A stretch of DNA of 64,000 nucleotides from Clostridia bacterium. Its GTDB lineage: Bacteria; Bacillota; Clostridia; UMGS1883; UMGS1540. Both the position numbers and the translations under genes were made by a program. The notes below the pieces were generated by a model. That model was given only the letters and a program-made list of their open reading frames with translations. It was not told the DNA's origin and did no database searches. Positions 33,021-55,713 of this stretch are shown piece by piece (positions within the stretch are counted from its first letter, which is position 1; each line of letters begins with the position of its first letter). The DNA lies in NCBI GenBank assembly GCA_017620205.1, contig JAFZQX010000003.1, positions 67,713 to 131,712 of the forward strand, read 5' to 3'.

Positions 33021-34541
33021 TTGATTAAAGTTGTAATTGCTGAAAACAATACCGAAATGTATAAACGCATGACGGAATGTATCGACCGCACAAGATTTGG
33101 AATAGAACTTGCCGCCTCGTTCCTCAACGGCCGTGACGCATTGGGGTTTTTGAAAAATAACGATGCAGATATACTTGTAACCGATATTAAAATGCCGCTG
33201 ATGGACGGATTTGAACTTATTTCAAACGCAAAGAAATTCAAGCCGGATCTCGGGATAATTGTTCTTAGCGGTATCGATAATTTTAAAACAGTAAAAAAAG
33301 CTTTTAAACTCGGCGTTGATGATTATGTTCTTAAAAAAGAATTCAATCCCGGTTCGTTTCTGCAGTTAATAAAAGAAGTTTATGACCAAAAGCAGAACGT
33401 AGCGGGGACAGACAAGCTCAGTGTTAACATGAAGGAATATACACTCCGCCAGTTTTTTTGGTCTGATACCCAATTGAGAAATAAGAAGAAAGAGCATCAT
33501 TTAGCGCCCGAAGCCGTGTACAGAGTTGCGATTTTGAAATTGTCAAATTACGAAACGGTTGTAAGAGCAGGGTGGAGCATGGAAAAAGAGCTTATGAAGT
33601 TCGGCCTTTCAAACTGTATCGCGGAAACGCTTGACAATTACGGATTCGGCGACTTTTTCTTTAACACTTACGATGAAGTCGTATTTTTATTTAAGGAAAA
33701 AGAGAACTCATGCGCAGAGATACGTAAAATTTTTTCGGATATTTTTTCTTTTCTGTCCCAGAGGTTTGGTATAATAGCGACCGGAGTTCTGTTTGATACA
33801 AAGGATTTGCCGGACCATAAGGAACAGTATTATATATTAAACCGTATGCTGGCGTATTCTTTCATATTCGGAAACGGCATTCTGCTGTCGGTAGATAAAA
33901 TCAACGGTTATAAAGATGAACCTGAGCTTTCCGGCGTTTCCGAAAGAATTGAAGTTGATTTGCTTAATATGGATCTTGCTTCATTCGGCGCGGAGATAAA
34001 GAATATTGAAACGATAAAGCCTGCTTATGAGTATATTTTCGGTATAAAAGATATTTATGTGAGAGTAATTAAAAAGCTCATTAAAATATTGAGAAACTAC
34101 GAGATGCCGGCTTCTTTGGTTAATCTCGGTGAGATTAATATGGAGTGTACATCTGTGTCTGAACTTAACAAGATTATATTTGAGGAGTGTTCTGCGCTTT
34201 CAAAAAGTATAGAATACTCCGATGTTGCAATTGTTCAGGTTCAAAACTATATCAAGGAGCACTATTCGTCTGCCATAAATCTTCAGTTTCTGGCAAAAGA
34301 GTTTCTTTTCAGTTATACCGATTTAAGCAGACGCTTTAAAAAAGCTGCCGGCATGAGTTTTTCGGAGTTTTTAAACGACGTTCGCCTTACAGAGGCCATG
34401 AAACTTATCAAAACGACCGATTACATGTGTTCAAAGATAGCTTTTGTTGTCGGGTATAAGAATTATGAGTGTTTCAGCCGTGCTTTTAAGAATAAATACG
34501 GTAAAGCACCTAATGAGGTTAGGAAAGAGAATAAACTATAG
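33021..34541 (+). CDS. YesN-type response regulator with AraC DNA-binding domain
   Basis: 506 residues, TTG start six bases after TGAGGT. The receiver domain (1-125) keeps the phospho-acceptor Asp (ILVTDIKMPLMDGFEL), a Ser in VLSG and Lys in YVLKKEF. Its acid pocket reads AENN, where VDDE is usual, so Mg2+ binding may be weakened. The middle ~270 residues are a linker seen in YesN proteins. The last ~100 form an AraC helix-turn-helix pair (INLQFLAKEFLFSYTDLSRRFKKAAG, CSKIAFVVGYKNYECFSRAFK). Such regulators activate neighbouring sugar importers. The partner histidine kinase (YesM-like) is absent here. Confidence 0.9.
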   Translation: MIKVVIAENNTEMYKRMTECIDRTRFGIELAASFLNGRDALGFLKNNDADILVTDIKMPLMDGFELISNAKKFKPDLGIIVLSGIDNFKTVKKAFKLGVDDYVLKKEFNPGSFLQLIKEVYDQKQNVAGTDKLSVNMKEYTLRQFFWSDTQLRNKKKEHHLAPEAVYRVAILKLSNYETVVRAGWSMEKELMKFGLSNCIAETLDNYGFGDFFFNTYDEVVFLFKEKENSCAEIRKIFSDIFSFLSQRFGIIATGVLFDTKDLPDHKEQYYILNRMLAYSFIFGNGILLSVDKINGYKDEPELSGVSERIEVDLLNMDLASFGAEIKNIETIKPAYEYIFGIKDIYVRVIKKLIKILRNYEMPASLVNLGEINMECTSVSELNKIIFEECSALSKSIEYSDVAIVQVQNYIKEHYSSAINLQFLAKEFLFSYTDLSRRFKKAAGMSFSEFLNDVRLTEAMKLIKTTDYMCSKIAFVVGYKNYECFSRAFKNKYGKAPNEVRKENKL

Positions 34542-34873: not shown

Positions 34874-35923
34874 ATGGGTAAAGAACAGAAATTCAAGGCA
34901 GAGAACCTTGAAAAAAACGCACAGACCAAGACAGAAAATTTGGTCGAAAATGTAACCGAAAAAGAAGTTGCTCTTAAAAATGCAGCCGCAGAAAAAGAGG
35001 CACCGGCTGTATCAACCGTCAGAAAGACTTCTGCCGGAGCATACTTCAAAAAACACAGAGCAACTTATTTATTCCTGCTTCCGGGAATTATTTGTTGCCT
35101 GATTTTCCACTATCTGCCTCTTGCCGGATTATCGATGGCGTTTATGAAAGTTGATATTCTGGATCTTTTCCACAGTCCCTGGATAGGACTTGAAAACTTT
35201 AAAAAGATTATCTCCATGCCGGACTTTACAAAAGCGATTTTCAACACCGCATGGCTCGGTTTTCTTAATATTATTATTAAGTTTCCCGCGCCTATAATAT
35301 TTGCGCTTCTTTTGAATGAGCTTAAGGACGGTATCGGAAAAAGGTTTACTCAGACAGTAAGTTATCTTCCTTATTTTATTTCAACAATAGCTGTCGTAGG
35401 TCTTGCAGTTACGCTGTTTAGCTCAGACGGTATAGTAAATGAAATAAGATCATACTTCAAGCCAAACGAGGAACCGATGTATTATTTGCTTGAACAGAAA
35501 TGCTTTGTTCCAATGAACGTTGGACTTGTTGTTTGGAAAAACCTCGGTTGGAGCTCGGTTATTTACCTTGCAACAATCTCAGGTATCGATGCTGCTCTTT
35601 ATGAGGCCGCTATTATAGACGGTGCCGGAAGGTTTAAACAATGTTTACATATTACAATTCCTTCTATTATAGGAACAGTTATCATTCTTCTCATTCTTGA
35701 AATAGGTAACCTCTTTAAGACAAACTTCGATATTATCTACGGTTTGCAGAACTCGGCAATAGATTATGAAGTAATTTCAACAATGGTATACAAAAAAGGT
35801 ATTCAGGGCAGTCAGTACGGAATTGCAACCGCACTCAGCTTGATGGAAGGCCTTATGAGCCTTGTGCTTGTTCTTGCAACCAACTTTATTTCGAAGAGAT
35901 TAAACGATACTTCGCTTATCTAA
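34874..35923 (+). CDS. LplB-type sugar ABC transporter permease
   Basis: 349 residues with six membrane helices and the inner-membrane-component EAA-like loop YEAAIIDGAGRFKQCLHITIPS, which docks to the ATPase. FLLPGIICCLIFHYLPLAGL and the N-terminal helix match LplB/YteP, which import oligosaccharides such as unsaturated rhamnogalacturonan or aldouronates. A 60-residue Lys/Glu/Ala-rich cytoplasmic extension precedes the first helix, longer than in typical members. No ATPase gene is nearby; these systems usually share an MsmX-like ATPase encoded elsewhere. GGAAGGAG precedes the ATG. Confidence 0.92.
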   Translation: MGKEQKFKAENLEKNAQTKTENLVENVTEKEVALKNAAAEKEAPAVSTVRKTSAGAYFKKHRATYLFLLPGIICCLIFHYLPLAGLSMAFMKVDILDLFHSPWIGLENFKKIISMPDFTKAIFNTAWLGFLNIIIKFPAPIIFALLLNELKDGIGKRFTQTVSYLPYFISTIAVVGLAVTLFSSDGIVNEIRSYFKPNEEPMYYLLEQKCFVPMNVGLVVWKNLGWSSVIYLATISGIDAALYEAAIIDGAGRFKQCLHITIPSIIGTVIILLILEIGNLFKTNFDIIYGLQNSAIDYEVISTMVYKKGIQGSQYGIATALSLMEGLMSLVLVLATNFISKRLNDTSLI

Positions 35924-36209: not shown

Positions 36210-37088
36210 ATGTTTGTAATCTTGTTTATGCTCTTTATTGTAGCACTCACACTTTTCCCGTATCTTAACGTTTTGGCAAAAGCGTTTAACGACAGCGCGG
36301 ACGCGGCTAAAGGCGGTATTAAGCTTTGGCCGAGAAAGTTCACGCTTGAAAACTTCAAACAGATGCTCAGTGATAAAAATATTTATCATGCGCTTTATAT
36401 TACTGTAGCGAGAGTTGTGCTTGTAACAATAGGCGCCCTGCTCGTTCAGTTTATGACCGCATACGCTTTGACGCGTAAGCTTAAAGGTACGGCTCTGTTT
36501 AATATCTTCTTCCTTATCCCGATGTTTATAACGGGCGGTACGATGGCTTCGTTCGTGCTTTATAAATACATTGGTCTTTTGAATAATTTCTGGGTTTACG
36601 TTTTACCCGGTTTGTTTACCTTCTATAATGTTATAGTAATCAGATCATATATACAGACAAGTATTCCGGAGAGTATTATAGAAGCTGCTCATATAGACGG
36701 AATTTCGGAACTTGGTTTGTTCTTTAAAATAATACTTCCTCTTTCGAAGCCTATTCTCGCAACAGTAGCTCTTTGGGTTATGGTTGCTAACTGGAACGAC
36801 TGGACAACTACTCTTTACTTCGCTTCCAGAAATAAAGACCTCGAGACGCTGCAGTATAAATTGATGCAGACAATTCAAAAGAGCGCACAGCTGCAGAAGG
36901 ACATAAAGGCCGCACTTATTGAAGGCGGCGACGTTGAAGCTGCTAAGAAAGCTGCTTCTAAGAACATTCCGCCGGAAACTATGAAATCCACACAGATTAT
37001 TATAGTTACTGTTCCGATTATCATGGTTTATCCGTTCATCCAGAAATACTTTACAAAAGGTATTACATTGGGTGCTGTTAAAGGTTAA
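36210..37088 (+). CDS. LplC-type carbohydrate ABC transporter permease
   Basis: 292 residues; six membrane helices with the loop IPESIIEAAHIDGISELGLFFKIILPLSKP that contacts the ATPase. It matches LplC/YtcP. It begins almost at its first helix (MFVILFMLFIVALTLFPYLN), without the usual 10-20 residue cytoplasmic lead, and lacks a strong ribosome site, so translation may be coupled to the small upstream gene. Near the end there is a ~35-residue charged insertion (LQKDIKAALIEGGDVEAAKK) common in LplC homologues. Confidence 0.92.
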   Translation: MFVILFMLFIVALTLFPYLNVLAKAFNDSADAAKGGIKLWPRKFTLENFKQMLSDKNIYHALYITVARVVLVTIGALLVQFMTAYALTRKLKGTALFNIFFLIPMFITGGTMASFVLYKYIGLLNNFWVYVLPGLFTFYNVIVIRSYIQTSIPESIIEAAHIDGISELGLFFKIILPLSKPILATVALWVMVANWNDWTTTLYFASRNKDLETLQYKLMQTIQKSAQLQKDIKAALIEGGDVEAAKKAASKNIPPETMKSTQIIIVTVPIIMVYPFIQKYFTKGITLGAVKG

Positions 37089-37124: not shown

Positions 37125-39050
37125 ATGAAAAAATTAATTGCGTTGTTACTTAGTGTAGGTATTTTGATGAGTTTTTCCGGCTGCGGAAAGAAAAAGATGC
37201 TCGGTGACGAGCCCAGCGCGGGATTACCGATGAATTTCAATGAAGAAGCAGATAATTATGATATTATAGACGATATGCCCGACTATACCGGCGACAATCT
37301 TGACCTTGTTGTTTGGTACGGTTACGGCACAGGCGAAAAATATAAAGATTCATTAGCAACAGACGATAAATTCCGTGACGAAATAGAAAGAGTTACAGGC
37401 GTTCGTCTCAGCGATGAATCTTATGACAACAACGGTAAAACAGCCGATCAGCTTATTTCGGAAATGGCTGCAAGCGAAGATTTCCCGCAGGTTGCTATGG
37501 GTATCGAAACTTCCGCTGCAGACAAATTCATAGAAAAAGATATGCTTTTTGACTTGTCTGAGTATATTCCGAAGTATATGCCGCACTACTGGAAAATCAT
37601 AAGCGAAAACCCCGATATTATGAGACAGTGGGAAAACACACAGCCTGAAAAAGGTACGTTCTACTTAAAACGTTTCCACAACAGAGCGTTCCAGTTTACA
37701 GATCCCGAAGGTTATGAAGCAGGCGACTATTCCAGACTTGTTCAGCCTGTAGATTCCCGCAATTGGGTTTGGGTAAGAGACGATATTCTCAAACAGATTT
37801 ACCCCAATGCTAAAACACAAAAAGAAATAAAGGCTATTTACGAAGCAAACGGCGCTTATACAAAAGAAGATATGAGCGATGTTACAATCAAGAGCAGTGA
37901 AGAATTTAAACAGCTCCTTGAAAAAATAAACGCGCTTAACATTACCGAAAACGGTAAGAAAGTATGGCCTTTCTATACAAGAGAAGGCGTTGAAGATTAC
38001 TTCAATCTCTTCACAATGTTCGGCACAACTCTTGCCGGCGCAGGAACAGGCGGAGATGTTGTAAGTGACTATACATATTTTGACGGCAACCGTGACGAAA
38101 TAGTAGTTACGGCAGAACAGCCCTGGTTTAAAGATCTTTGCAAATACTTTAACGGTTTATACAGAGAAGGTCTTGCTTCAAAAGACGCTATTGCAGATGA
38201 TGAAACAACATTCAACTCAAAGCTTAAAAACGGTGAATATGCAGTTATTTACGGCTACGATATGCCTCCTACGGACGAAGAGCTTGAAGCGGCAGGCAAA
38301 AACTTCTCATACAGAAAAGTTATGATTGACATTCCCTGTGATTACAACGAATTTGTTCGCAGAAACGATAACAAAAACGCATTTGATTCATATAACATGG
38401 TATTCTTCAAAACAAGCATGACAGGTACGCAGCTTGAACAGGCTCTCCGCTTTATTGACTTCTTCTATACAGAGCCCGGTATGAAGCTTGCAAACTGGGG
38501 TCCGAAAAAAGCCGGTCTTTATGAAGAAACCGACAAAGGATTCCGTTACACGGACGAAAGATATGAAAAAGCACAGCTTTACAGCGCAGACCCGAAGGTA
38601 TATGAAGATTACGGTTTATACTCATTCCCGCGTATTGACTACTTCATTTACCCCGACGGTATAAATAAATATCAGCCGGAAATAGTTTACGGCGATGATT
38701 TCAAACAGCAGCCTTCAGATTGGGTTAAATATTGGAATTACTCATTTGTAGAAGGCGAAGAAATGCCCGACTTCCCGTATACAAACTTTGCATGGCAGAT
38801 CTATACATTTGCTAAATACTGCGAACCCGCTAAAACATTCTGGGATGCACGTGACGAATTTGAAAATGCGCTCGGAAGAGTGGTAGTTGCTGCATCTGAC
38901 GATGAATTTGAAAAGGCATATAGCAATTTACTTGATACAATTCACAGAAACGGTCTTGATGAAGAAGGCATGAAAATAATGAACGAAACAATGAAAGAAA
39001 GATGCGGAGACACATACGAAGAGCTTGTGAATTGGACATCTGATAAATAA
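37125..39050 (+). CDS. LplA-type extracellular sugar-binding lipoprotein
   Basis: 641 residues with a lipoprotein signal (SFSGCGKK, Cys20) and a family 1-like solute-binding fold much longer than usual, as in LplA/YtcQ. DNLDLVVWYGYGTGEKYKDS opens the mature domain, and a Trp/Tyr/Asp-rich C-terminal half (SDWVKYWNYSFVEGEEMPDF) is suited to stacking on sugars. It would deliver oligosaccharides to the two permeases encoded upstream. GGAGG precedes the ATG. It is followed after 18 bp by the first beta-helix gene, tying import to extracellular processing. Confidence 0.92.
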   Translation: MKKLIALLLSVGILMSFSGCGKKKMLGDEPSAGLPMNFNEEADNYDIIDDMPDYTGDNLDLVVWYGYGTGEKYKDSLATDDKFRDEIERVTGVRLSDESYDNNGKTADQLISEMAASEDFPQVAMGIETSAADKFIEKDMLFDLSEYIPKYMPHYWKIISENPDIMRQWENTQPEKGTFYLKRFHNRAFQFTDPEGYEAGDYSRLVQPVDSRNWVWVRDDILKQIYPNAKTQKEIKAIYEANGAYTKEDMSDVTIKSSEEFKQLLEKINALNITENGKKVWPFYTREGVEDYFNLFTMFGTTLAGAGTGGDVVSDYTYFDGNRDEIVVTAEQPWFKDLCKYFNGLYREGLASKDAIADDETTFNSKLKNGEYAVIYGYDMPPTDEELEAAGKNFSYRKVMIDIPCDYNEFVRRNDNKNAFDSYNMVFFKTSMTGTQLEQALRFIDFFYTEPGMKLANWGPKKAGLYEETDKGFRYTDERYEKAQLYSADPKVYEDYGLYSFPRIDYFIYPDGINKYQPEIVYGDDFKQQPSDWVKYWNYSFVEGEEMPDFPYTNFAWQIYTFAKYCEPAKTFWDARDEFENALGRVVVAASDDEFEKAYSNLLDTIHRNGLDEEGMKIMNETMKERCGDTYEELVNWTSDK

Positions 39051-39068: not shown

Positions 39069-42000
39069 ATGAAAAAATATATATGCATATTATTGGCAAT
39101 ATCAATGCTCTTAATGATGTGTATAAACATATCGGCGGATTCATTTACTAAGTATACACCTGAATCTGCAGGTCCAATGAATTATTCATTGGACCTCAGA
39201 TACCCCGTTTCTGCAAACGGGGCATCTGTGTCCGGGAGCTATCTTAATATGCCGGCAGGTTCAAGCGCTGAATATGATATATTCTTCGATTATGACGTAG
39301 AAAACCTTCAGGTGTCATATCAGGCTACTGCAGCCGGAACGCTTACAGTCGGTGTTGACGGAAACTCATATCAGCTTTCACTGGCTGCGGGCTCATATAC
39401 GGTAAACAAGGATATTATTGAGAGAAAGGGCTCTCATACAATAAGTCTTTCTTTTGCCGGGACCGGCTTAATAACAGATGTCAGTTTCAAAAAGGCTAAA
39501 ATTGACAATACCGGTATAAGCCAGCAGTACACCGTATATAACATTGATTATAATGATTATGACAAGGCAATGCAGACGGCAGTTGCAGTTTCAACTTCTA
39601 AAGTTGCTATTAAGGTAAACGGGGCTTTCCGTTACCTTGATTATACGGATACTTCGCTTTCTCCTTTGAACATTGACGGAAGAATTTATCTTCCCATACA
39701 TGCCGCTGCGAGAGCGTTTTCGCTGTACTATGAGGATTATCCCGATAAAGCGTATGCTTATTTGAGCAATGATGATTTTGAGATTTATCAGAAAGAAAAT
39801 GATTGCTACGTAGTTATAAACGGTGAAAAAATAGATAATTACGGAAGATTTGCGATTTATTTAAATGGCACTACATGGGTCCCGTTCCGTCAGTTGGCAG
39901 AACTTCTCGGCGAAAAAGTTGAGTGGCGACAAGACCATAGAGGAAACGGCTACGCAATAGCCGACGACAGAATAAGAGCAAAGGCTATAGTTTCAAACGA
40001 TGACATTTTCAATGACCTTGTTGATGAATTTTCTCAGTTTGATGTCTCCGGTCTCCGGAGGAATAAAACTTATTATGTCTCACAGACAGCAGGATCGGAT
40101 ACGAATATCGGTACTTCCGAAGCAGCACCGTTTGCAACAATTCAGAAGGCCGCAGATGTGGCACAGGCCGGTGATACAGTTATTATTCACGGCGGTGTAT
40201 ACCGCGAAACCGTTAAGGTTAAAAACAGCGGAACCGCGACACAGCCTATTGTTTTCAAAGCGGCAGATGGGGAAGACGTAACTATTTCCGCTTTTGATAA
40301 GGTCAGCGGTTTTACCAAGTCGAGTTATAATCAGAACGGTTATGATCTTTATCAGGTAACGCTCGCAAAATCAATGGGATATGACAGAAACTTTGTTATA
40401 AGAAACGATGAAATTCTTCGTGAAGGCAGGTATCCGGACAACGATGATCATCCTCTTGTAAGTCCGCACCCGAATATGAATGAAAACGTAATGCGTGCGA
40501 CGATGGGTAACATAGCTATGCCTTCGCCAAGTGCGGTCTCCGGTAAAACATTTACCTACACAACAACCGACGGAACCTTTTCAAAAGCATACGAATATGA
40601 TTTTGCAATAAGTGATACTGATCTTAATCAGTCAAAGAATTATTGGAAAGACGGCACATTTGTTACTCTTACGGGTCAGGCTTATACATTGTCTTACGCC
40701 CGTATTGACGCAAGTGACAATCATATAGGTGCAAACGATAACATAGGTTGGATTCATTTGATTGATAACAACAAGGGCGGATATGATTTTGTAGGACCCG
40801 AAAAAGAAAATCAGAATTTGTTCTACAAATCAAAAAATTCCGATGACTACGGTTATATTACGCACCATTTAAAGACTGTTACATTGCCCGGCGAATGGTA
40901 TGTTGACCACAGTAAAAAAATACTGTATATCATACCTCCCGAAGGTGTTTCGGGCTCCGCACTGGAAGTTGAGGTTAAGCAGCGTCAGTGCGTAATTGAT
41001 ATGACCGGTAAAAGCTTTGTTCAGTTCCATGATATTAATACACGCGGCGGCGGCGTTACAATGGCGGCGCAGTTCACAAATGGCGAAGTTACAGATACCG
41101 AAATGGATATTTTAGACGGCGGTACTCATAAATATATTTCCCAGATAGACTGGACCGCTGCTCACGCAACACACGACGGAAGATATATATACAGACAGCA
41201 AACCAACAGAGTTGCAACTAAGAATCAGGACGGTCCGGAGCTCGGTGAAGTTGGTTTCTATACACACGGAAAAAACAACGCGATTGTAAATACGCATATC
41301 GCATATTCGGCGCAGGCCGGTATTTATACAACAGGTCTTTATACATATATAGAAAATAATTACGTTGAAAACGCAAGCTATATGGGTTCGTATCCGGGTG
41401 CAATTACTCTTGAAGGCGTTAAGTGGAATTCAGACCCCGGCGCCAAATCGGGCGGCCATACTGTTGTAGCTAATACAATGGTAGGTTCCGGTCGCGGCAA
41501 CCTGTATCTCAGCCGAGGCGTAGCCTATGCTAACAGTTCGAAGGTAGATCCCGAAACGATGTATCCATATATTGCGTGTGATCTGTCGTATAACCGTATA
41601 CAGATGGGCGCAGTTTCATCAAGGGATACAGGCAGTGTCTACATTTACGGTACGAGCGCCGGAAATGACCTTTTAAAGACACGGCTTCATCACAATATTA
41701 TTTATGATATGGGCACTCTTGAAAAGAACTCAATGATGAATGCTCTTATTTATCATGACGGTTATGCAAACTTTATCAATACATACTCAAATATGACATT
41801 TGATACGGCTAAAGGGTATGTAGGATATGATTTATTCCAGCATACTTCAGCAGATCATTACAGAAACTATGTTGAAAAATGGGGTAATGTTTCGCTCGGT
41901 ACAATCACAAGCGGCGTTACATGCGATATGCAGGATACTTTCAGCAAGAAAGACTATCCGTACGGCAAGCCGTTTGACGTAGGTTCAACAAGAGACGGTC

Positions 42001-43013
42001 ACAGGCGTTTCATGCTGAATTATAACGATGACGCTGACTGCGCTATAAGATATGCCGGCGAAGCAGCAGACGCAACGCTTTCTTCAAACGCAAGTCTTGG
42101 TGAAGACGGATTTGTAACATTACCGTCTTCAAGCGATTACATTGACTTTAAAAACGTAAAATTCTACGATACAGGAACAGAATTTTCAATATTCTATTCC
42201 TCAGACAGGTATCAGTACGGTACCAACGTGGGAACTGAGGCTAAACCCAGATACGAAAGCGCAATCCCCAAGTTTACGATTGAGCTCAGAAACGGCAACA
42301 GTGTTGTAAGAACTATTACTGAAGATGTTTATTCACATGCGACAAATCTTGAAAATGAGTCGAGATTTATAATGTACTTTAAGCCTCAGACAACGGCTAC
42401 GTACACCGTGCGTTTAAAGGTTGACAAGAATTATGTAAGACCGTGTAAGCTGATGTCGGCTAAGCTTGACTTTAATGCAAAGGCTCAGGAGGATTGGCCG
42501 TATCCGTTTGACGGTGATACATTCCTGTTCGGTCCGTTGCCAAATACAAACGGATATAATGAAAACGAAAATCTGAAACTTGATGACCTTAGTATTCACA
42601 ATAAAATAAACCATTCATTCGGAGATGTTTCAACGTCATATTTTACAATCAGCAGCAAATACTTTACAAGTTCCGAAAACAAGGTTTCTATTAAGATTTC
42701 TACTGACTATCATTATACGAACGGTGTAATTAAAGTATATGAAAACAGCAGAATCCAGAGAAATCTTCTTGCAGAATTTAATCTTGCTGATTATATTCAG
42801 CCAACAGCTGACGGAAATGCTGCTGTTTGGCGCCCGTTTGTACTTACGAAAACCATGAATAAAACACTCGCACAAGGCAACCACACTATTTATGTTGTGT
42901 TTGACAAGTATGACCAAAGTGGTGCTTACCCGACTGTAAGCGCATTTTGGATAAGCTTCCATTCGCGCGATTTCAGCGGTTCATCACCGACACTGGCTTC
43001 ACTTCAGCAGTAA
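39069..43013 (+). CDS. Secreted right-handed beta-helix protein with CBM6-like and copper-amine-oxidase-N-like domains (paralogue 1)
   Basis: 1314 residues, signal peptide to about 24. Residues ~30-150 form a CBM6-like beta sandwich; ~180-300 two copper-amine-oxidase-N1-type units (GRIYLPIHAAARAF, GTTWVPFRQLAELLG), a wall-protein module without copper ligands. From ~332 a DUF1565 beta helix begins (TYYVSQTAGSDTNIGTSEAA, IQKAADVAQAGDTVIIHGGVYRE broken here for length). GEWYVDHSKKILYIIPPEG (near 608) is a pattern seen in GH120/GH141-type beta-helix hydrolases, and LDGGTHKYISQIDW (near 682) is invariant in the paralogue and may be near the active site. Two C-terminal beta domains follow. I infer a glycan hydrolase or lyase; the reaction is not proven. 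Confidence 0.78.
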   Translation: MKKYICILLAISMLLMMCINISADSFTKYTPESAGPMNYSLDLRYPVSANGASVSGSYLNMPAGSSAEYDIFFDYDVENLQVSYQATAAGTLTVGVDGNSYQLSLAAGSYTVNKDIIERKGSHTISLSFAGTGLITDVSFKKAKIDNTGISQQYTVYNIDYNDYDKAMQTAVAVSTSKVAIKVNGAFRYLDYTDTSLSPLNIDGRIYLPIHAAARAFSLYYEDYPDKAYAYLSNDDFEIYQKENDCYVVINGEKIDNYGRFAIYLNGTTWVPFRQLAELLGEKVEWRQDHRGNGYAIADDRIRAKAIVSNDDIFNDLVDEFSQFDVSGLRRNKTYYVSQTAGSDTNIGTSEAAPFATIQKAADVAQAGDTVIIHGGVYRETVKVKNSGTATQPIVFKAADGEDVTISAFDKVSGFTKSSYNQNGYDLYQVTLAKSMGYDRNFVIRNDEILREGRYPDNDDHPLVSPHPNMNENVMRATMGNIAMPSPSAVSGKTFTYTTTDGTFSKAYEYDFAISDTDLNQSKNYWKDGTFVTLTGQAYTLSYARIDASDNHIGANDNIGWIHLIDNNKGGYDFVGPEKENQNLFYKSKNSDDYGYITHHLKTVTLPGEWYVDHSKKILYIIPPEGVSGSALEVEVKQRQCVIDMTGKSFVQFHDINTRGGGVTMAAQFTNGEVTDTEMDILDGGTHKYISQIDWTAAHATHDGRYIYRQQTNRVATKNQDGPELGEVGFYTHGKNNAIVNTHIAYSAQAGIYTTGLYTYIENNYVENASYMGSYPGAITLEGVKWNSDPGAKSGGHTVVANTMVGSGRGNLYLSRGVAYANSSKVDPETMYPYIACDLSYNRIQMGAVSSRDTGSVYIYGTSAGNDLLKTRLHHNIIYDMGTLEKNSMMNALIYHDGYANFINTYSNMTFDTAKGYVGYDLFQHTSADHYRNYVEKWGNVSLGTITSGVTCDMQDTFSKKDYPYGKPFDVGSTRDGHRRFMLNYNDDADCAIRYAGEAADATLSSNASLGEDGFVTLPSSSDYIDFKNVKFYDTGTEFSIFYSSDRYQYGTNVGTEAKPRYESAIPKFTIELRNGNSVVRTITEDVYSHATNLENESRFIMYFKPQTTATYTVRLKVDKNYVRPCKLMSAKLDFNAKAQEDWPYPFDGDTFLFGPLPNTNGYNENENLKLDDLSIHNKINHSFGDVSTSYFTISSKYFTSSENKVSIKISTDYHYTNGVIKVYENSRIQRNLLAEFNLADYIQPTADGNAAVWRPFVLTKTMNKTLAQGNHTIYVVFDKYDQSGAYPTVSAFWISFHSRDFSGSSPTLASLQQ

Positions 43014-43036
43014 GTCGATTAAAGAATTTATCCTTT

Positions 43037-43067
43037 GGGTTGTAAAGTACTTAGTATTTTACAGCCC
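43037..43067 (+). other. Intergenic hairpin without U-tract
   Basis: GGGTTGTAAA pairs with TTTACAGCCC in the gap between the two beta-helix genes. No run of T follows, so it probably protects or punctuates the mRNA rather than ending it. Confidence 0.55.
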
Positions 43068-43157
43068 GGAGGAATAATGTTCGAAAATTAATTCTTTTTA
43101 AAGAATTTTGAAAAATATATATAGTATGAAAAAATTTAGAAAAGTAAGGTGAGGTAA

Positions 43158-46100
43158 ATGAAAAAAATTTTAGCAATTTCATTGGCGATGGTTATGCTCT
43201 TTTCCATGTGTCTGAATGCCTCTGCGGCACTTCAGTATTACACGCCCGAAACTGCAGGCCCGATGCTGTATAATCTCGAATTAACAAAACCTCTGTCTAC
43301 TGACAAAGCTCAGGTGGCAGGCAAAAATTTGAGAATCAGTGCAGGCGGCAGCGCAAACTTCGATATATACTTCAATTTAGACGTTGAAAACATCGAACTT
43401 TCTTATCAGGACGCTGCAGCAGGAAAGGTTACTGTAACTACGGAAAACAATTCATATGAATTGGCCATAGATCCGCAGCTGAACAATGTAACAGTTCCAA
43501 TTTCAGAGCGAAAAGGTTCGCATAATGTAACGGTATCTTCTACCGGTGCAATTACGATCACTTCGCTCGCGTTCCATAAAGCAAAAATGGAAGGCATAGG
43601 TCCCTACAACGACATTTTTGTTGAATACAATAATTATGATGACGCTATGCAGACAGCCGTTGTAGTAAATCCTGAGAGAAATGCTATTAAAGTAAACGGC
43701 GCTATGCGCTACTATGATTACACAAATACAAATCTCGTACCCAAAAACATCGATGGCAGAATTTATCTCCCGATACATGCTTTTGCAAGAGCATTCCAGC
43801 TCTACTATGAAGATTATCCGGATTTGAATTATGCGTATATTGCTAATGACAATATCGTTGTTTACCAGCGCGATGATACTACATACATGCTTAAAAACGA
43901 CGCAAAATATGATTACGGAAAGTTTGCAATTTATCTTGACGGTATTACATGGGTACCTTTCCGTCAGATGGCAGAGCTCTTCGGCGAAACAATCGTATGG
44001 CGTGACGGATATGCTGTAGCAGATGACAGAATCCGTGCAAACAATATTATAAACGATGATGATATCTTTAACGCTCTCGTTAAAGACTTTGCACAGTTTG
44101 ATGTTTCAGATCCTTCAAAGACTGCAAGAAATAATACATATTATGTTTCCCAGGCGGCTTATGCATCCGACTCTAACAACGGCAGCGAGAACTTCCCGTT
44201 CCGTACAATTCAGAAGGCTGCAGATGTTGCCATGGAAGGTGATACGGTTATTATCCGCGAAGGTGTATACCGTGAAACAGTTACAATTAAAAATGACGGT
44301 ACAGCAACACAGCCTGTTATTTTCAAAGCAGCCGAAGGCGAAAACGTAACGATTTCGGCGTTTGAAAAGGTAAAAGGCTTTGCAAGCTATAAAGGAAATA
44401 TATATCAGGCAATCATTCCGAAGTCAATGGGATATGACAGAAACTTCATTATAATGAACGATGAAATTCTCCGCGAAGGCAGATATCCCGATACGGATAC
44501 GTCAACAGTTAATGCTCCGCATCCGGGTTATACATGGGATGACAATATAATGAGAGCAACTTACGGCGATATCAGAATGCCTGTAGAGCAGAATACGTCA
44601 AAAGATTATTCTTACGCTATTGGCGGCGACCTTAATCAGACCGAAAAAGATTACTGGAAGGGCGGCACATTCGTTACCCTGACAGGTGAAGCATGGACGC
44701 TCTGCTATGCTATGATTACAGGCAGTAAATACGGCAGAATTGATATAGCGCATAACGGTAAAGGCGGCTATGCAATAGATAACTACTATTTAGATAAGAA
44801 AGAAAATGACTGGGGTTATATTACCCACCATTTAAATACAGTTAATATGCCGGGCGAATGGTATATAGACGATGCTTCGCACGTACTCTATATGGTTCCT
44901 CCGGAAGGAACAGACCCCGCTACTCTCGAAGTAGAAGTTAAACAGCGTCAGGTTGTTGTTGATATGACGGACAGAAAATTCGTTCAGTTCCATAACATCA
45001 ACACCCGCGGCGGCGGCCTCACAATGGCAGGCAATTCCGAAATGAACGTCCTCGACGGCGGTACTCATAAGTATATCTCGCAGATAGACTGGTCAGCAGC
45101 TCATGCAACGCATGACGGTAGATATATGGACAGAGACGCAAGATGGCAGGCTAAAGTTGACGCCCCCGAACTCGGCGAAGTTGGCTTCTATGCATACGGT
45201 ACCAACAACGCGTTTGTAAATACGCATATTGCATATTCCGCAGTAGCAGGTATTTACCTCACAGGTACATACGGATATGTTGAAAACAACTTCATAGAGT
45301 CTGCAAGCTACATGGGCACATACCCCGGCGCAATTACTCTTGAAGGTATCCATACAAGCGATGTTCATGATAAGATAGGCGGTCACACGGTTGTTGCAAA
45401 CACATGTGTGGGTTCGGGCCGTGCAAATCTCTATCTCAGCCGCGGTAAAGCATATCCGTCGACTGACAATATGCTCCCGTATATCGCATGTGATTTATCA
45501 TTTAACCGTCTCCAGATGGGCTCAACGGTAGCAAGAGATACAGGTAACTTCTATACATACGGCACATCGGTTGGTAACGACGTTATCCATACTCATCTGC
45601 ACCACAACGTTGTTTACGATATAGGTACTGAAACGAAACACTCTGCACTCAACGCGCTTATTTACCACGACGGTTTTTCAAGCTTCTATGACACATATTC
45701 GAACATGACATTCCAGACAGTTCCCGGATATGTTTCAAACGATGTATTCCAGCATCTCAGCGGTGACTACAAAAACTATGTTGAAAAATGGGGTAATGTT
45801 TCGGCAGGTACTGTTCCCCAGGGCATGGCAGGTCTTAAGATAAGCGACTATCCCTACGGTAAGAAGTTTGACGTAGGTTCAACGCTTGACGGTCATGACC
45901 GTGTAATGGAAAACTGTGACAGAGTAAATGAAGCTACTTTGGATTATACACGTGACGCAGAACTTGCAGGCGGCGCAGCTCTTGCAGACGACGGTCTTAT
46001 TGATATGCCGACGGCAGACGCTTCAGCAACATACAAAGATGTTACATGTTATCCCGAAGGCACAGAGCTTTCAATTTACTATTCATCAGACAAATATCAG

Positions 46101-46892
46101 TATAATACAAAGAACGTTCCGACCATGACGTTTGAATTTATACAGAACGGTCAGGTAGTTGCTACAAGAAGCGAAGGCGTTTATGCACATGCAATGCGCA
46201 TAGAAGACCGTGAAAGAACAGTTCTTTACCTCGATTCCGATATGGCGGGAACATACGATATACGCATTAAGGTAAACAAGGATTATGTAAGACTCAGTAA
46301 ACTTGTATACAACCCCATAAACTATGCTGAAAAAGCAGCAACAAGCGATTACCCGCTGGACGGCGATACAATAACACTCGGTTCATGGGATCACTGTCTT
46401 GACTGTAACGATGCGGGCCCGAGAACAAACATCAAGCTTGAAGGCGCAAACGTTATTGCTAAGACAAACTTCACAATCCATGATACAAACGAACACAGAC
46501 CCGTATATGAAAACCGTCTCTTTACTCACGACGCTTCCGTTGTTACAATGAGAGTAGGTTGTGCACACGACTATGCAAACGGTTATATCGACATTTATGT
46601 TGACAGCATGTCCGCAGGTCCGGTAGCAACATTTGATATACTCAGTTACTACAGACCGCACAGCAGTTGGGAATTCAAGAATATGACAGCTAAAATGAAC
46701 AGAGTAATACCCGCAGGAATCCATACTGTTTACGTTGTATATCACGGTTATAAGCATCCGACATCCGATGTAAACGATGCTCCGTTCGGTATTACAGACT
46801 CACATTGGCTCTCATTCCATAACGGTGAAACATATACAAAAACAACACCTACAGTTGCAGAAGCAGAAGCTGCTGCAGCAGCACAACAATAA
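43158..46892 (+). CDS. Secreted right-handed beta-helix protein (paralogue 2)
   Basis: 1244 residues with the same order as the preceding gene product: signal peptide, CBM6-like sandwich, copper-amine-oxidase-N1-like pair (from ~175), DUF1565 beta helix (from ~325), GEWYIDDASHVLYMVPPEG (near 567), LDGGTHKYISQIDW (near 632), SAAHATHDGRY, and two C-terminal beta domains. Much of the length is clearly alignable, so the two arose by tandem duplication and then diverged; loops around residues 400-560 differ most, hinting at different linkages or side chains. It ends in a Glu/Ala-rich tail. GGTGAGG precedes the ATG. Confidence 0.78.
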   Translation: MKKILAISLAMVMLFSMCLNASAALQYYTPETAGPMLYNLELTKPLSTDKAQVAGKNLRISAGGSANFDIYFNLDVENIELSYQDAAAGKVTVTTENNSYELAIDPQLNNVTVPISERKGSHNVTVSSTGAITITSLAFHKAKMEGIGPYNDIFVEYNNYDDAMQTAVVVNPERNAIKVNGAMRYYDYTNTNLVPKNIDGRIYLPIHAFARAFQLYYEDYPDLNYAYIANDNIVVYQRDDTTYMLKNDAKYDYGKFAIYLDGITWVPFRQMAELFGETIVWRDGYAVADDRIRANNIINDDDIFNALVKDFAQFDVSDPSKTARNNTYYVSQAAYASDSNNGSENFPFRTIQKAADVAMEGDTVIIREGVYRETVTIKNDGTATQPVIFKAAEGENVTISAFEKVKGFASYKGNIYQAIIPKSMGYDRNFIIMNDEILREGRYPDTDTSTVNAPHPGYTWDDNIMRATYGDIRMPVEQNTSKDYSYAIGGDLNQTEKDYWKGGTFVTLTGEAWTLCYAMITGSKYGRIDIAHNGKGGYAIDNYYLDKKENDWGYITHHLNTVNMPGEWYIDDASHVLYMVPPEGTDPATLEVEVKQRQVVVDMTDRKFVQFHNINTRGGGLTMAGNSEMNVLDGGTHKYISQIDWSAAHATHDGRYMDRDARWQAKVDAPELGEVGFYAYGTNNAFVNTHIAYSAVAGIYLTGTYGYVENNFIESASYMGTYPGAITLEGIHTSDVHDKIGGHTVVANTCVGSGRANLYLSRGKAYPSTDNMLPYIACDLSFNRLQMGSTVARDTGNFYTYGTSVGNDVIHTHLHHNVVYDIGTETKHSALNALIYHDGFSSFYDTYSNMTFQTVPGYVSNDVFQHLSGDYKNYVEKWGNVSAGTVPQGMAGLKISDYPYGKKFDVGSTLDGHDRVMENCDRVNEATLDYTRDAELAGGAALADDGLIDMPTADASATYKDVTCYPEGTELSIYYSSDKYQYNTKNVPTMTFEFIQNGQVVATRSEGVYAHAMRIEDRERTVLYLDSDMAGTYDIRIKVNKDYVRLSKLVYNPINYAEKAATSDYPLDGDTITLGSWDHCLDCNDAGPRTNIKLEGANVIAKTNFTIHDTNEHRPVYENRLFTHDASVVTMRVGCAHDYANGYIDIYVDSMSAGPVATFDILSYYRPHSSWEFKNMTAKMNRVIPAGIHTVYVVYHGYKHPTSDVNDAPFGITDSHWLSFHNGETYTKTTPTVAEAEAAAAAQQ

Positions 46893-46938: not shown

Positions 46939-46969
46939 TAAATTTGAAAAAACAGGGAGTGTGAATTTG

Positions 46970-48562
46970 ATGACATTTAAGAAAAAAGTTTTATCGGTTC
47001 TCATAGCGTGCTTTATGTTGATAACAGTTATGTCGGCAATTTCTGTTTCAGCAGCAGGAAAATGCTTGGAACTTGATTTAAGCGGTATGGCAGAATCATT
47101 TGCAGGATCGCCCGGTGACGGCACCAACGTTGGTTTAAAAAATAAATTATCGGGCTGGGGCGAGACTATAACAATGAAACATAAGAACTCGGGCGGCGCA
47201 GTAGTTAAAATGACCAGACAGTATACTGCAAATGCCGAGGGTGAAGAAGTAACGCCCTATATTCTTTTCGAAAACAACTCGGTAAGCTGGGATTATAATA
47301 CAGTTCAGTTTAATATCGCAAACAAAAAAATGGAGCAGGATCCAACCTCAATTTCATTTTGGGCAGATGTAGATACATATTCTGCAAAAGCGGTTGCAAT
47401 TGTTGATTTAAAAGTTGATTATACTTCTTTGGCTCAGGCAGAAGAAGACTGGCAACAAGCTGCTTATGATGCAAAAAAAGAGGCTGAAAAACAGAATAAA
47501 GATTATGTAGCCCCTGTATATCCTACAGCGCGTGAAACTTATAATTACGATGTAGACCTGTCTGTTTCAACAACAGGTGCGATTTGCCTTAAAAACGGTG
47601 ATTCACATACGGTTAATGCCGGATGGAATCATTATGTAATCACAAGCAGACCGATTGATTACGACAATGTTGTTACCGTAGATGTAACAGCACAGTTTGA
47701 TGATGACGATGAAGGTATTAAAGTAGGAGACGTAATTCAGAGAGAACGCGTTGTTAAATATTATGATTTATACATAAACGGCGTTTGTGTTGAAACTTAT
47801 GAGATGTATCTTCCCAAAGACGCGGTTTCAATTAATGCAGTTCTTGCAGTTGCTAACAAATGGGGAACCAAAACAGACGGTTCATCCGGATTTAACAATT
47901 CATTGCCCGCAAAAGCAAAATACGGTCAATTTGAGATTTATGACAGTGTTTTAGATGAATCCGAGGTTTTATCGGTATTTTCATCACAGAAAGAAGCTTT
48001 TGGTTTAGGATTTGCAAACAGAATAGCAGACGGACCGGAAGAAGTTGCGCCTGATGCAAAAAGTTTCAAAGTTACTTTTGAGAATGACGTTACAAATGTT
48101 AAAGATTTGGGCGATGTAGTAATTGTTGATAAAGTTGACGGTAAAAGAATTGCTGTAGACTTTGATGCATCCGGAAAAGATGTAATAATAACACCTAAAG
48201 AATACTTAACGCCCGGCAGAGAGTATTTAGTTGATTTTTCTATTGACTATTCTACCGACTTTACGTTTAAAGCGGCTGCAAACGGAATAGTATTTAACTC
48301 TGCTACAAAAGTTGAATCTGATTATGTTGAGTTCGACCTTAAGAGCGAAAAAAGCATTAACGCTGTTATTGTTATAATGGGTTACGATGAGGAGGGCTTT
48401 ATTACTAACGCTGTAATGGAGGATAAAGTATTTGACGGCTCGACGGACTTTAACGTGGATGCTCCCGGTATCGGACAGTGCAAAACAGCAAAAGTTATGA
48501 TTTGGGAAAAAGACGGTGCAAAACTGCTTCCTCTTACCAATGCATATGTATTTAACAAATAG
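46970..48562 (+). CDS. Secreted LamG-like protein
   Basis: 531 residues (ATG 46970; AGGGAG ten bases upstream) with a signal peptide to about 29. One concanavalin A/LamG-like domain (CLELDLSGMAESF to the end of QFEIYDSVLDESEVLSVF, about 30-330) is followed by a Big/SwmB-like beta domain (KSFKVTFENDVTNVKDLGDV) and a C-terminal ~90-residue module ending in MIWEKDGAKLLPLTNAY. No catalytic motif is seen. I infer glycan or surface binding. The LamG domain is close to those in the next gene and those at 57599 and 61512. Confidence 0.72.
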   Translation: MTFKKKVLSVLIACFMLITVMSAISVSAAGKCLELDLSGMAESFAGSPGDGTNVGLKNKLSGWGETITMKHKNSGGAVVKMTRQYTANAEGEEVTPYILFENNSVSWDYNTVQFNIANKKMEQDPTSISFWADVDTYSAKAVAIVDLKVDYTSLAQAEEDWQQAAYDAKKEAEKQNKDYVAPVYPTARETYNYDVDLSVSTTGAICLKNGDSHTVNAGWNHYVITSRPIDYDNVVTVDVTAQFDDDDEGIKVGDVIQRERVVKYYDLYINGVCVETYEMYLPKDAVSINAVLAVANKWGTKTDGSSGFNNSLPAKAKYGQFEIYDSVLDESEVLSVFSSQKEAFGLGFANRIADGPEEVAPDAKSFKVTFENDVTNVKDLGDVVIVDKVDGKRIAVDFDASGKDVIITPKEYLTPGREYLVDFSIDYSTDFTFKAAANGIVFNSATKVESDYVEFDLKSEKSINAVIVIMGYDEEGFITNAVMEDKVFDGSTDFNVDAPGIGQCKTAKVMIWEKDGAKLLPLTNAYVFNK

Positions 48563-48633
48563 CATTTATAATTATTAGTTATTTGTTTATTTGTTGTTTT
48601 TAACATTCTAATTATATTTTGAGGAAAATGATT

Positions 48634-51600
48634 ATGAAAAAAGTTTCAAAGGTTATTTCATCTTTATTAGTAACCGTTTCAATCGTCTGTTCTTTACTTG
48701 CCGTTTTGCCTGCAGCAGGAGTCAGCGCAGCAACAACAAAGCTTGTTGATTTAGATTTAAGCACTTATGTTGAAGATACAAGCACAGAACCTAATGATAC
48801 AAACGCAAGCGTAGGTAGTGTTACAAATAACGGTTCGCTTGCAAGTTCAACAAGAGTTGTTATGTCTTCGCAAACGCGTTACCACAAAAACGAATTGAAA
48901 CTAAATCAAATGTGGAACGCAAACGGAGAAAAGACATATTGGTTTGATTATACCAATGACAACGATAACGTTGCCGATAAGAACCGTTTCCGTATGGTAA
49001 ACGAGCCTGCGCTTGAATCTCAGGCTAACACAATTTCTGTTTGGATAAAGTATGATCCTTCCGAAAACAGTGTTTCAAACAGATACAGAAGTATTCTTGA
49101 TTATTCCGTAAACGGTACGCAGAAGTTTACGCTCCGTACAGACACGAGCTCGAACGGAAACTTTATCCTTACCGACGGATATACCTTTAATTGGAGATCT
49201 GTTCAGAGCCAGGCAAATAACACTTGGGTAAACCTTGTTGTTACAAACCCTGCATACGTTGGCGGGTCAAAAGTGATGAAGACCTATTTAAACGGAACGC
49301 TGCTTGGCTCAACAACTGTAACCCAGACAGCAAACGTAACAGATGCAATAATTGCTATAGCGGGCACTAACCCCGAAAACACCGTTGGTCTTTATTATCC
49401 TACCTCAATATCATTCGGTGAATTTAAAGTTTATAGCGGTGAGCTTTCACAAAGCGAAATTTCAAATTTGTATACTGACAATGCATACAAATTTGAGGAA
49501 GGTTCTGAACCGCTTCAGAATATCATAGGATATTCGTTTAATAACAGTACGGTAACATACGACGGTCAAAACCATAACATAACTGTATCGGCAGGCGCAG
49601 GCGCCACACAGGGCGTAAGCATTGCCTATACATCAAACGGAGCAGCTTTCAGCGGCGCGTCGGCTGTCGGTACATATCCCGTAACAGCAACAATTACAAA
49701 ATCAGGATATAATACCCTCGTATTAAACGCAACGCTGACAATCAACTCCGCGCAATCACAGTCAGAACATGATACGTTTGTAGATCTTGATTTGACAAAC
49801 ATGGAAAAATCAGTAGGTACGGCTCCTTTTACCGGAACTTCCGGTGTTGCCGATAATGGTGATTGGGCAAGCTCGACAAATTTGGTTATCCAATCCAAAA
49901 CCGGCGTTGATATTGACAAAGCGTCGTTTGCAAACGCTGACGGCGGAACAACGGATTATATCAAACTCGAAAATTCAAATCCGGGTTGGAACGAAAACAC
50001 AATAGGCTTCAATTTCAGCAATACGGCTCTTGAAGCAAACGATGACACAATTTCATTTTGGGTAGACGCTACGAAATACCCGAATAAGAATACAGAAGTA
50101 TTGCAGTATTTAGTAAATTACAATAACGGCAGCCGTGCGTCCTTCGACCTCAGTATGACGTCGGAAGGAAAGTGGAATGCACAGAGCGATGCAACTGCAA
50201 CAACGAGTGATTGTTATACACTTGCTGATGGGTGGAAACATGTTGTTATTACAAATCCAAAACGTTCGGGCGGCAGCAAGACGATGGATATGTATGTAAA
50301 CGGTGTGCTTAAAGATACTGTTACACTAAACATTCCTGACGGTGCGTCAATACAAAGCGCAACTGTTTCTTTTGCCGCACGTGACGAGGACGGTACGGGA
50401 TTTAAAAAACGTGTTCTCATAGCTGCAAAATACGGCGATATTAAAGTATATTCAGGCGTTATGTCGGCGTCCGAAGTCACGGCGCTTTATAACGCAAACT
50501 TAAACAGATATACAGAATACGGTTCATCAGCGCTTCAGGATATTACCGGTTACTCATTTGCAAACAGCACGGTAAACTATGACGGCGGCATTCAAAGTAT
50601 TGCGGTAACGGCGTCTTCCGGCGCAACCTCCGGTGTAAGCATAGATTATACAGTTGACGGTGCGCCTTTTACGGGAGCCTCTGAAGTCGGTTCATACTAT
50701 GTTACTGCAACAATCACAAAGCCCGGTTATAATGCGTTGGTACTTCATGCAACGCTGACGATCTTGTCAACCAACGTTCCTGATTACACCAAGCTTATTG
50801 ATCTTGATTTTTCAACTTATGTAAAGGATACTTCAAGTACGGATCCCGATAGCGTAGCGGGCTCAATAGGAAGTATTGCAAACAGAGGCACGCTGGCGGC
50901 ATCGACAATAGTAAAAATGTCGTCCCAGTCAGGAAGATGGACCGGGCTTGATCTTTCAAAAGAAAGCTTTGCAAGCAAAAACGGTTCAATAACAAGTTAT
51001 TTGCACAGGACAATAAATACACAGGTTTGTAATGAAAGAAACAGATTTAATACTGTTGAAGAAAAGGCTCTTGAAGAGCAGGACAACACGATCTCATTCT
51101 GGTTGAATTACATACCTGAAAACAGGGACGCCGTCGAATATAACGTTTTTGACTATAACGTAAAATACGGCAGTACTTCACAGCATTTGCTTACGCTTAA
51201 TCAGGCACCTACAACAACGGGCAAATTCAAGCTTGTTGCAAGAGGTCAGTCTAAGATATACGGTTCAATAAATGAATGTGCAGGCAAATGGACGCATTTT
51301 GTTATAACAAACCCGGCGTATGTAAACGGCGAAAAAGAAATGAAGATATATGTAAACGGTCAGCTGCTTGCAACCGATACGGTTACACAGCCATCAGGAA
51401 CTCTCTCAACTGCATTGATGGCATTCGGCGGTGAGGCTTCTCCGAATGCTTATTACTGGCCTACAGAATATAATCTTGCCGATGTTAAAGTTTATTCCGG
51501 CGTTGTTGAGCCTACCGATGTGGTATCTTTGTTTAATTCAGAAGCCGGCAGATTCATTGAACACGACGATAATGTTTTCTTCCAGGTATTCTCTGCTGCC

Positions 51601-52588: not shown

Positions 52589-52615
52589 GACTAAAATTTG
52601 AAAGGATTGGTTAGT

Positions 52616-55600: not shown

Positions 55601-55696
55601 GTTGGTGCAAGTTGGCTCAGAGTTGATGAAGAAGTTCTTGTTTCATTCGACTCTTACGAATACAAACCCGCCATGGCAGTTGTATTTTGCAGATAA
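52616..55696 (+). CDS. SLH protein with N-terminal CBM6-like domain and long beta-rich region
   Basis: 1026 residues from ATG 52616, signal peptide to about 24. Residues ~25-145 form a CBM6-like sandwich (GPVEIHLDSSSGPILAKL, then ISGPHQIWFVFQG). SLH repeats cover about 150-330 (FNDIADNPLRTQINVLADLG, FADITSADKDYNLVKWLCGTG). A ~700-residue beta-rich region with repeated short modules such as TVTGTVKEISKNGGTVTVVM follows. Its plan resembles that of the 13720-15984 protein. It would link the glycan-binding machinery to the wall polymer. No enzyme motif is visible. Confidence 0.75.
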   Translation: MKKFLTIFFLVALLPLCYVLTAHAAETVTIDAKSYNQGKPAKVGATSISLSKGQSVGFDIDFAISPTEISFICSNDAHHSGPVEIHLDSSSGPILAKLSTNPNVEWVRVNYTAPIKTDISGPHQIWFVFQGLSTDFVSVSFVIQDPADMYESFVTQSDAFNDIADNPLRTQINVLADLGILSKSQESFDAERLVSKRDFLRAVSAFYQETVVGLQEEQLFADITSADKDYNLVKWLCGTGVLKADPYSNLNLDSSVSFDEAIGYLVGLLEYDNEVELRGGVLQTANRLGLLKGVNVSSANDVKNKDMAKLLWNALQSKYNNTVSVSSKGLVKYQSEDDVMEYTGLINGGEDVIYATQNSNIYSGPKAPVSAVMINNEVYYVGKTDAAKYLGFKCIYFYEDVDGRKTLLAARPAMNIQYQSISSQDYEIEKITDDLVSYYENNKEKQFRFANDAIIVYNGTKTTENLEDLVEKNKKDKFNGRILLVDNDNDNRYDIVMVDQARTIVFGGYTMSADSTSVYDLLENNSIVSDKDTRVILLYGVNGGSWANAKPGTVMDVYESEGITRYVPSSETVTGTVKEISKNGGTVTVVMDDGGEYEAYDKNNSDIITGETVTIKLNSFGQYVTYTKSETSKIGVVLGAGTEKDGLEVIPRIRLLTEKNEKVVFDFANRVYFDGVILKKPEDIESKLSAVSERDIVIYNTNANNEIIMIDTAVDVARNKYDILTPTITLNSDNKLTSTYIGLVDADPTPLGVVRNSLKAVSVPVNGNEDQYEFVNFNSGKAPFSGYSTTLNPVTGRASFLTDLIVIQRPPRTSTNDREASFIVTRKFDRLGDDGEIEIVIEGMNKGGKVTYVVDNYTLNGDVVVTTADNPKLTDTFYASEQLREAVEAVKPGDIVQPAVDPAGKITYLAVNYFGDERTDPNCKPEIPGDGTKYATDITDGKGGLFKGRVLNTEEGFAEVEYINKDGSKRSAYIDGNTLKIYAVTLRNGNAIVETVGASWLRVDEEVLVSFDSYEYKPAMAVVFCR

Positions 55697-55713
55697 TTGG
55701 GAGGAGAAATAAC

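Follow-up and report, generated by a model that had tools for sequence, protein, structure and literature searches.

Few members of glycoside hydrolase family GH141 have been tested, and their substrates are disparate, comprising a fucosyl linkage of rhamnogalacturonan II, arabinoxylan and fucoidan according to excerpts of three reports (PMC12786026, PMC10154630, PMC5593877). In the enzyme BT1002 (PDB 5MQP), D523 and D564 are described as the putative nucleophile and acid/base (excerpt of PMC10154630) and as essential (excerpt of PMC12786026), and the same Asp pair is conserved as D540 and D577 in Xyn141E, a GH141 enzyme with a C-terminal carbohydrate-binding module, CBM6 (excerpt of PMC5593877). 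Here we describe two neighboring genes, P1 and P2, from a Clostridia bacterium (assembly GCA_017620205.1, contig JAFZQX010000003.1, positions 67,713 to 131,712), a stretch of 64,000 nucleotides referred to below as the window. Like BT1002, Xyn141E and the Wf141 endo-fucanases, their products have a core interrupted after its first turns by an insertion ending in GEWY.D..LY..P, two candidate catalytic Asp residues separated by about 40 positions and, as in Xyn141E, a CBM6-like module at the C-terminus of P2. They differ from GH141 by an extra N-terminal module, a Cu_amine_oxidN1 domain, the invariant residues R755 and H815 (P2 numbering), an unmatched GH141_M domain (PF21231) and the lack of any single-sequence match to the family. 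We consider it fairly likely that P1 and P2 are secreted, multi-domain, GH141-type polysaccharide-cleaving glycoside hydrolases in an importer-linked locus. The genes, cores and candidate catalytic residues are as follows.

39069..43013, + strand: P1, intact open reading frame (ORF) of 1314 amino acids; predicted secreted GH141-like beta-helix protein
40053..42053, + strand: P1 beta-helix core, residues 329-995, with an insertion ending in GEWY..LY..PPEG; fold predicted from homology
41625..41627, + strand: P1 D853, proposed nucleophile, aligned with P2 D794
41757..41759, + strand: P1 D897, proposed general acid/base, aligned with P2 D838
43158..46892, + strand: P2, intact ORF of 1244 amino acids; predicted secreted GH141-like beta-helix protein
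44121..45947, + strand: P2 beta-helix core with insertion, residues 322-930, from alignments; fold predicted from homology
45537..45539, + strand: P2 D794, proposed nucleophile, invariant in 12/12, corresponding to BT1002 D523 through L073 D699
45669..45671, + strand: P2 D838, proposed general acid/base, invariant in 12/12, corresponding to BT1002 D564 through L073 D732

An earlier note on this DNA, made from its letters alone, had described P1 and P2 as tandem paralogues, and this was borne out, with two intact neighboring ORFs on the + strand whose products are 50% identical from end to end (660 of 1326 aligned positions). Both have a signal-like start and would be secreted. The core was compared with GH141 by means of a 12-member profile, comprising nine proteins from four genomes (this genome and those numbered G577, G720 and G773) and three plasmid homologues from Bacteroidota, Pseudomonadota and Actinomycetota; five plasmid homologues had been fetched, and L032 and L033 were omitted from this alignment, the latter being assigned to the GH141-type set. 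When aligned with seven GH141 or GH141-like proteins, three of which came from contigs of this genome with Pfam GH141_M above the cut-off (including L073), the 12-member profile matched over its full length with a probability of 100% and an E-value of 8e-40 across 452 columns, all hhalign E-values here being those of single comparisons without a database background. The catalytic halves alone matched with a probability of 93.1% (E 3.1e-7), compared with 0.1% in both reversed controls and 0.5, 0.4, 1.7 and 30.3% for four viral beta-helices. The plasmid homologues bridged the two groups, as their catalytic half matched that of the nine-member profile (99.4%, E 6.3e-22) and that of GH141 (97.1%, E 6.3e-11).

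The same alignments point to a specific pair of residues. D794 and D838 of P2 fell on D699 and D732 of L073 in all six alignments with the 12-member profile. L073 is a GH141 homologue of this genome and matches BT_1002 at E 8.2e-30; its D699 and D732 lie opposite residues 528 and 569 of the 5MQP chain, which are 41 positions apart, as are D523 and D564, so that the catalytic Asp pair of GH141 is aligned with P1 and P2 through L073. Of the 37 acidic residues in P2 590-930, only D794 and D838 are unchanged in all 12 homologues. The C-terminal half of the core contains no invariant charged, His, Tyr, Trp or Cys residues other than R755, D794, Y799, H815, Y836 and D838. The earlier note had asked whether conserved acidic residues cluster near 41112 and 45051, but the only conserved acids in this half among the 12 relatives lie further on, at 41625/41757 and 45537/45669. 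The GEWY...LY..PPEG motif reported from the sequence is indeed present and lines up with GEWYhDidarKVYYyPreGe in BT_1002, and the insertion carrying it occurs in P1 and P2 although PF21231 is unmatched. By transfer from BT1002, the two Asp residues (D794/D838 in P2, D853/D897 in P1) would sit on neighboring turns of the beta-helix and act as nucleophile and acid/base, and we propose that P1 and P2 may work like GH141 enzymes.

Several results weigh against this assignment. Without the plasmid homologues, the nine-member profile matched the GH141 catalytic half with a probability of only 6.5%, and in its full-length alignment D794 was one turn out of register in two of three settings. The full-length scores are therefore partly driven by the N-terminal turns, which are common to several beta-helix families. 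In the PDB, the profile matched 5MQP only in its first turns and in the GEWY motif. Single-sequence searches of the PDB (E up to 1) found GH120 for P1 and P2 and PL9 for P1 only, and never GH141. The earlier note had regarded a strong full-length match to a characterized family as speaking against a new group; such a match was obtained at the profile level (E 8e-40) and not by single sequence. PF21231 had no match in P1 or P2 (Pfam, E up to 1), the genome scan gave none at these two genes either, and because of this we do not place them as proven members of GH141. AlphaFold models from an alignment of P1 and P2 only had a predicted local distance difference test (pLDDT) score of 27.2 for the core (609 amino acids) and 26.1 for its second half (311 amino acids); the right-handed beta-helix fold of the core is predicted from homology, and the two Asp residues may face each other in it.

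GH120 was the other family that had been suggested for this helix, and the idea of a GH120- or GH141-related hydrolase appears right in kind, with GH141 fitting much better. GH120 enzymes use an Asp nucleophile and a Glu acid/base, according to a review. Over the first 100 or so residues of the core, GH120 XylC (PDB 3VST) was the best of the solved structures (profile E 1.4e-29; single-sequence E 4.8e-13 and 2.1e-15), which would suit beta-xylosidase-like enzymes. However, a GH120 profile (23 loci read, 13 with a usable ORF, nine with the LDW signature kept) aligned with only the first 103 or so columns of the nine-member profile and with 224 of the 12-member profile, and its catalytic half matched that of the nine members with a probability of 1.0% and that of the 12 members with 54.3%, in an alignment that stopped before the acids. 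The GH120-type proteins have a FVEVSH stretch after LWLDW, the Glu of which we take to be the acid/base E405, and it has no conserved acidic counterpart past D838 in the nine members. Because the alignment of the catalytic half does not cover the acids and D838 is not followed by a conserved acid, we do not place P1 and P2 in GH120, and consider that assignment most improbable.

A lyase of the PL9 or PL6 type, with Arg or Lys as the base, is also very unlikely. The weak first-turn match to PL9 (PDB 5OLQ; profile E 3.5e-8), a Chondroitinase B match below the cut-off in relatives and the invariance of R755 over 12 homologues would be consistent with one. PL9 lyases have a Lys base and a Ca-binding Asp cluster. 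None of the Lys residues is kept in all 12 sequences, so the lyase possibility raised earlier found no support; moreover, a PL9-like Asp cluster is not apparent among the invariants, and the C-terminal half has only two invariant acids, which fit the pair of GH141. The likeness to the PL9 rhamnogalacturonan lyase 5OLQ and to the GH136 lacto-N-biosidase (PDB 6KQS) is limited to the first-turn motif, with no significant match past the first turns. It may also be asked whether the proteins are catalytic at all, since they lie among laminin-G-like (LamG), CBM6 and S-layer homology (SLH) proteins, other obvious enzymes are few there, and Cu_amine_oxidN1 occurs at 40 places in this genome; surface adhesins or glycan binders built on a beta-helix would fit such surroundings. 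But proteins that only bind would hardly keep the Asp pair, Tyr, His and Arg invariant across distant phyla, and the dedicated importer beside the genes fits a cleaving enzyme, which makes a purely binding role unlikely. We therefore retain GH141-type hydrolases as the favored interpretation.

The remaining parts of the two proteins are listed below.

39651..39938, + strand: P1 Cu_amine_oxidN1, residues 195-290 (Pfam PF07833, E 5.3e-10)
41112..41153, + strand: P1 LDGGTHKYISQIDW, conserved solely among copies of this genome
43728..44006, + strand: P2 Cu_amine_oxidN1, residues 191-283 (Pfam PF07833, E 1.8e-8)
45051..45092, + strand: P2 LDGGTHKYISQIDW, conserved solely among copies of this genome
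46545..46778, + strand: P2 C-terminal CBM6-like module, residues 1130-1207 (Pfam CBM_6, E 0.0035, sub-threshold)

The Cu_amine_oxidN1 domain proposed ahead of the helix was confirmed, with scores of 39.6 and 34.7 bits in P1 and P2 against a Pfam gathering cut-off of 24.2. No catalytic amine-oxidase domain was found in P1 or P2 by Pfam (E up to 1), and PF07833 matched at 40 places across this 2.34 Mb genome; the "copper" label is therefore uninformative on copper chemistry, and fusion to this domain is a habit of the genome. These 40 places, together with the GH141-CBM6 precedent of Xyn141E in the excerpt cited above, weaken the proposal that the fusion plan fits no family. Among the matches listed from the open-access literature, this domain plan is not named in any title or opening of an abstract. 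The start of the helix resembles DUF1565, as had been noted, but below the Pfam cut-off (E 0.0055 and 0.0064), and NCBIfam gave a short helix-start match alone, far below its cut-off. A CBM6-like module had been placed ahead of the helix, but the sole Pfam CBM6 signal is the C-terminal one of P2, with none in P1; two relatives have a significant CBM6 match at the equivalent position (E 1.0e-15 and 6.6e-11). The N-terminal module was rejected as a CBM6, as its profile matched that of the C-terminal module with a probability of 0.9%. The LDGGTHKYISQIDW stretch, described as invariant, is identical in P1 and P2 and near-identical in the four copies of this genome, but is not kept in the five relatives elsewhere.

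This genome contains two further copies, C32 and C13. The C32 paralogue (L051:11074-14292) is an ORF of 1072 amino acids, 65% identical over P2 1-1058 and without the C-terminal module, and the C13 paralogue (L050:397-4770) has a duplicated N-terminal module. The five other genomes of the same family gave no match. At the class level, eight of 391 genomes matched, with long matches in four (this genome, G577, G720 and G773) and only some 80-130 profile positions covered in the other four; G577 and G773 have a tandem pair each, and G720 a single copy. Matches in the order were all short (3 of 27 other genomes), and none was long in the phylum sample, whether queried with a single protein (17 non-own of 398 genomes matched) or the nine-member profile (10 non-own of 398). 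Many matches in the order, phylum and class searches were GH120-type or first-turn, and these genome counts are lower bounds, as few candidates were scored per genome in large searches. Two scans of genome contigs and a first viral scan found no relatives. A second viral scan gave 12 loci, which were tail-fibre-like, shared the first-turn motif only and were excluded from the family, four of them serving as the viral controls above; a viral origin of P1 and P2 was likewise discarded, the one PHROG tail match being weak and limited to P1. Right-handed beta-helix proteins of Persicobacter, Catenovulum and Streptomyces share the Arg-Asp-Tyr-His-Tyr-Asp set in a core that is 25-27% identical; unlike P1 and P2, they have about 700-790 amino acids, lack Cu_amine_oxidN1 in the two scanned, and have no importer genes noted alongside.

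In a tree of the 12 cores, the four copies of this genome, the G577 pair and the G773 pair formed separate branches (support 100/100, 100/100 and 100/99), with P1 grouping with C13 and P2 with C32. Because these copies branch separately, the tandem duplications most simply arose separately in each lineage. The clade comprises nine proteins from four genomes of one class with a domain plan of its own, and it is plausible that it represents a new subfamily.

The genes surrounding P1 and P2 in the window are given below.

33021..34541, + strand: response regulator with AraC-type DNA-binding domain, YesN-like (Pfam Response_reg E 5e-18, HTH_18 E 1.2e-18); likely regulator of the locus
34874..35923, + strand: sugar ATP-binding cassette (ABC) permease 1, LplB-like (NCBIfam, below equivalog cut-offs); 53-54% identical to the G577 and G773 counterparts
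36210..37088, + strand: sugar ABC permease 2, LplC/YtcP-like (NCBIfam, below equivalog cut-offs); 54-55% identical to the G577 and G773 counterparts
37125..39050, + strand: substrate-binding lipoprotein of the importer, 641 amino acids, with a lipobox-like start; no Pfam match over the cut-off
46961..48562, + strand: secreted protein with Big_5 (Pfam E 4.4e-5)
48619..52515, + strand: secreted protein with three Laminin_G_3 lectin-like stretches (Pfam E 1.8e-30)
52598..55696, + strand: protein with an N-terminal CBM6-like module (Pfam E 1.4e-5, just under the cut-off)
55687..57483, + strand: SLH protein (Pfam SLH E 4.2e-38)
57599..61282, + strand: protein with Laminin_G_3, SASA (esterase-like) and polysaccharide deacetylase domains (Pfam; SASA just under the cut-off)

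The order permease-permease-lipoprotein-enzyme-enzyme is kept in G577 and G773, which belong to two other families of the class. The lipoprotein at 37125..39050 is 39-41% identical over about 640 residues to its G577 and G773 counterparts, and 63% identical to a copy beside the C13 paralogue. The importer set of G720 is clearly different, with a lipoprotein match over 94 residues (E 0.13) and permeases at 30-33%. Since the L073 gene also lies directly behind permease-, permease- and lipoprotein-like genes, the importer-enzyme layout is a theme in this genome. The GH141-type proteins L073 (C27), L071 (C6) and L072 (C21) of this genome have about 1170-1260 amino acids; C21 and C27 end within the start of the next similar gene, and C6 and C21 begin within one. 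Tandem copies thus seem to break the assembly, because the ends of these three contigs fall inside similar genes. Elsewhere in the genome, L076 (C5) carries an ORF for a GH141-like beta-helix protein, with a GH88 match and putative sugar-metabolism genes behind it. A neighboring protein at L078:4225-8115 has an N-terminus similar to that of 57599-61282, with a further LamG protein at L078:9148-11478. A tRNA-Glu called by ARAGORN at 54101-54176 lies inside the ORF 52598-55696, has no Rfam tRNA match and is very likely a false call.

Considering the above results, we have proposed a model for this locus. The N-terminal module, Cu_amine_oxidN1 and the C-terminal CBM6-like module may anchor the enzyme on its substrate or the cell surface, where the polysaccharide would be cut outside the cell and the released oligosaccharides imported by the upstream LplABC-like importer. 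The YesN/AraC-type regulator would control the locus, and the downstream SLH, LamG and CBM6 proteins may contribute binding or deacetylating functions. The weakest step is the substrate, which we can only guess to be a plant polysaccharide that is acidic, acetylated or both, of a pectic or glucuronoxylan-like kind. This guess draws on an upstream gene of G773 for an enolase-superfamily protein resembling sugar-acid dehydratases, on the deacetylase and esterase-like domains encoded here, and on GH88 matches on two other contigs of this genome. It is possible, though doubtful, that P1, P2 and their seven relatives found a glycoside hydrolase family of their own, a sister group of GH141 in which R755 and H815 are invariant in addition to the Asp pair. 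Its members would be endo-enzymes that act on an acidic plant polysaccharide and come with their own importer; tandem duplication would have taken place separately in three lineages, leaving the copies to divide substrate variants among them. Most likely, however, P1 and P2 belong to a divergent branch of GH141 with an unusual architecture and are not a new kind of enzyme. GH141 is poorly characterized, and a divergent branch that is linked to an importer and has clear candidates for the catalytic pair would be a directly testable addition to it. Furthermore, P1 and P2 show how a bacterium with a small genome may build polysaccharide loci from duplicated beta-helix enzymes.

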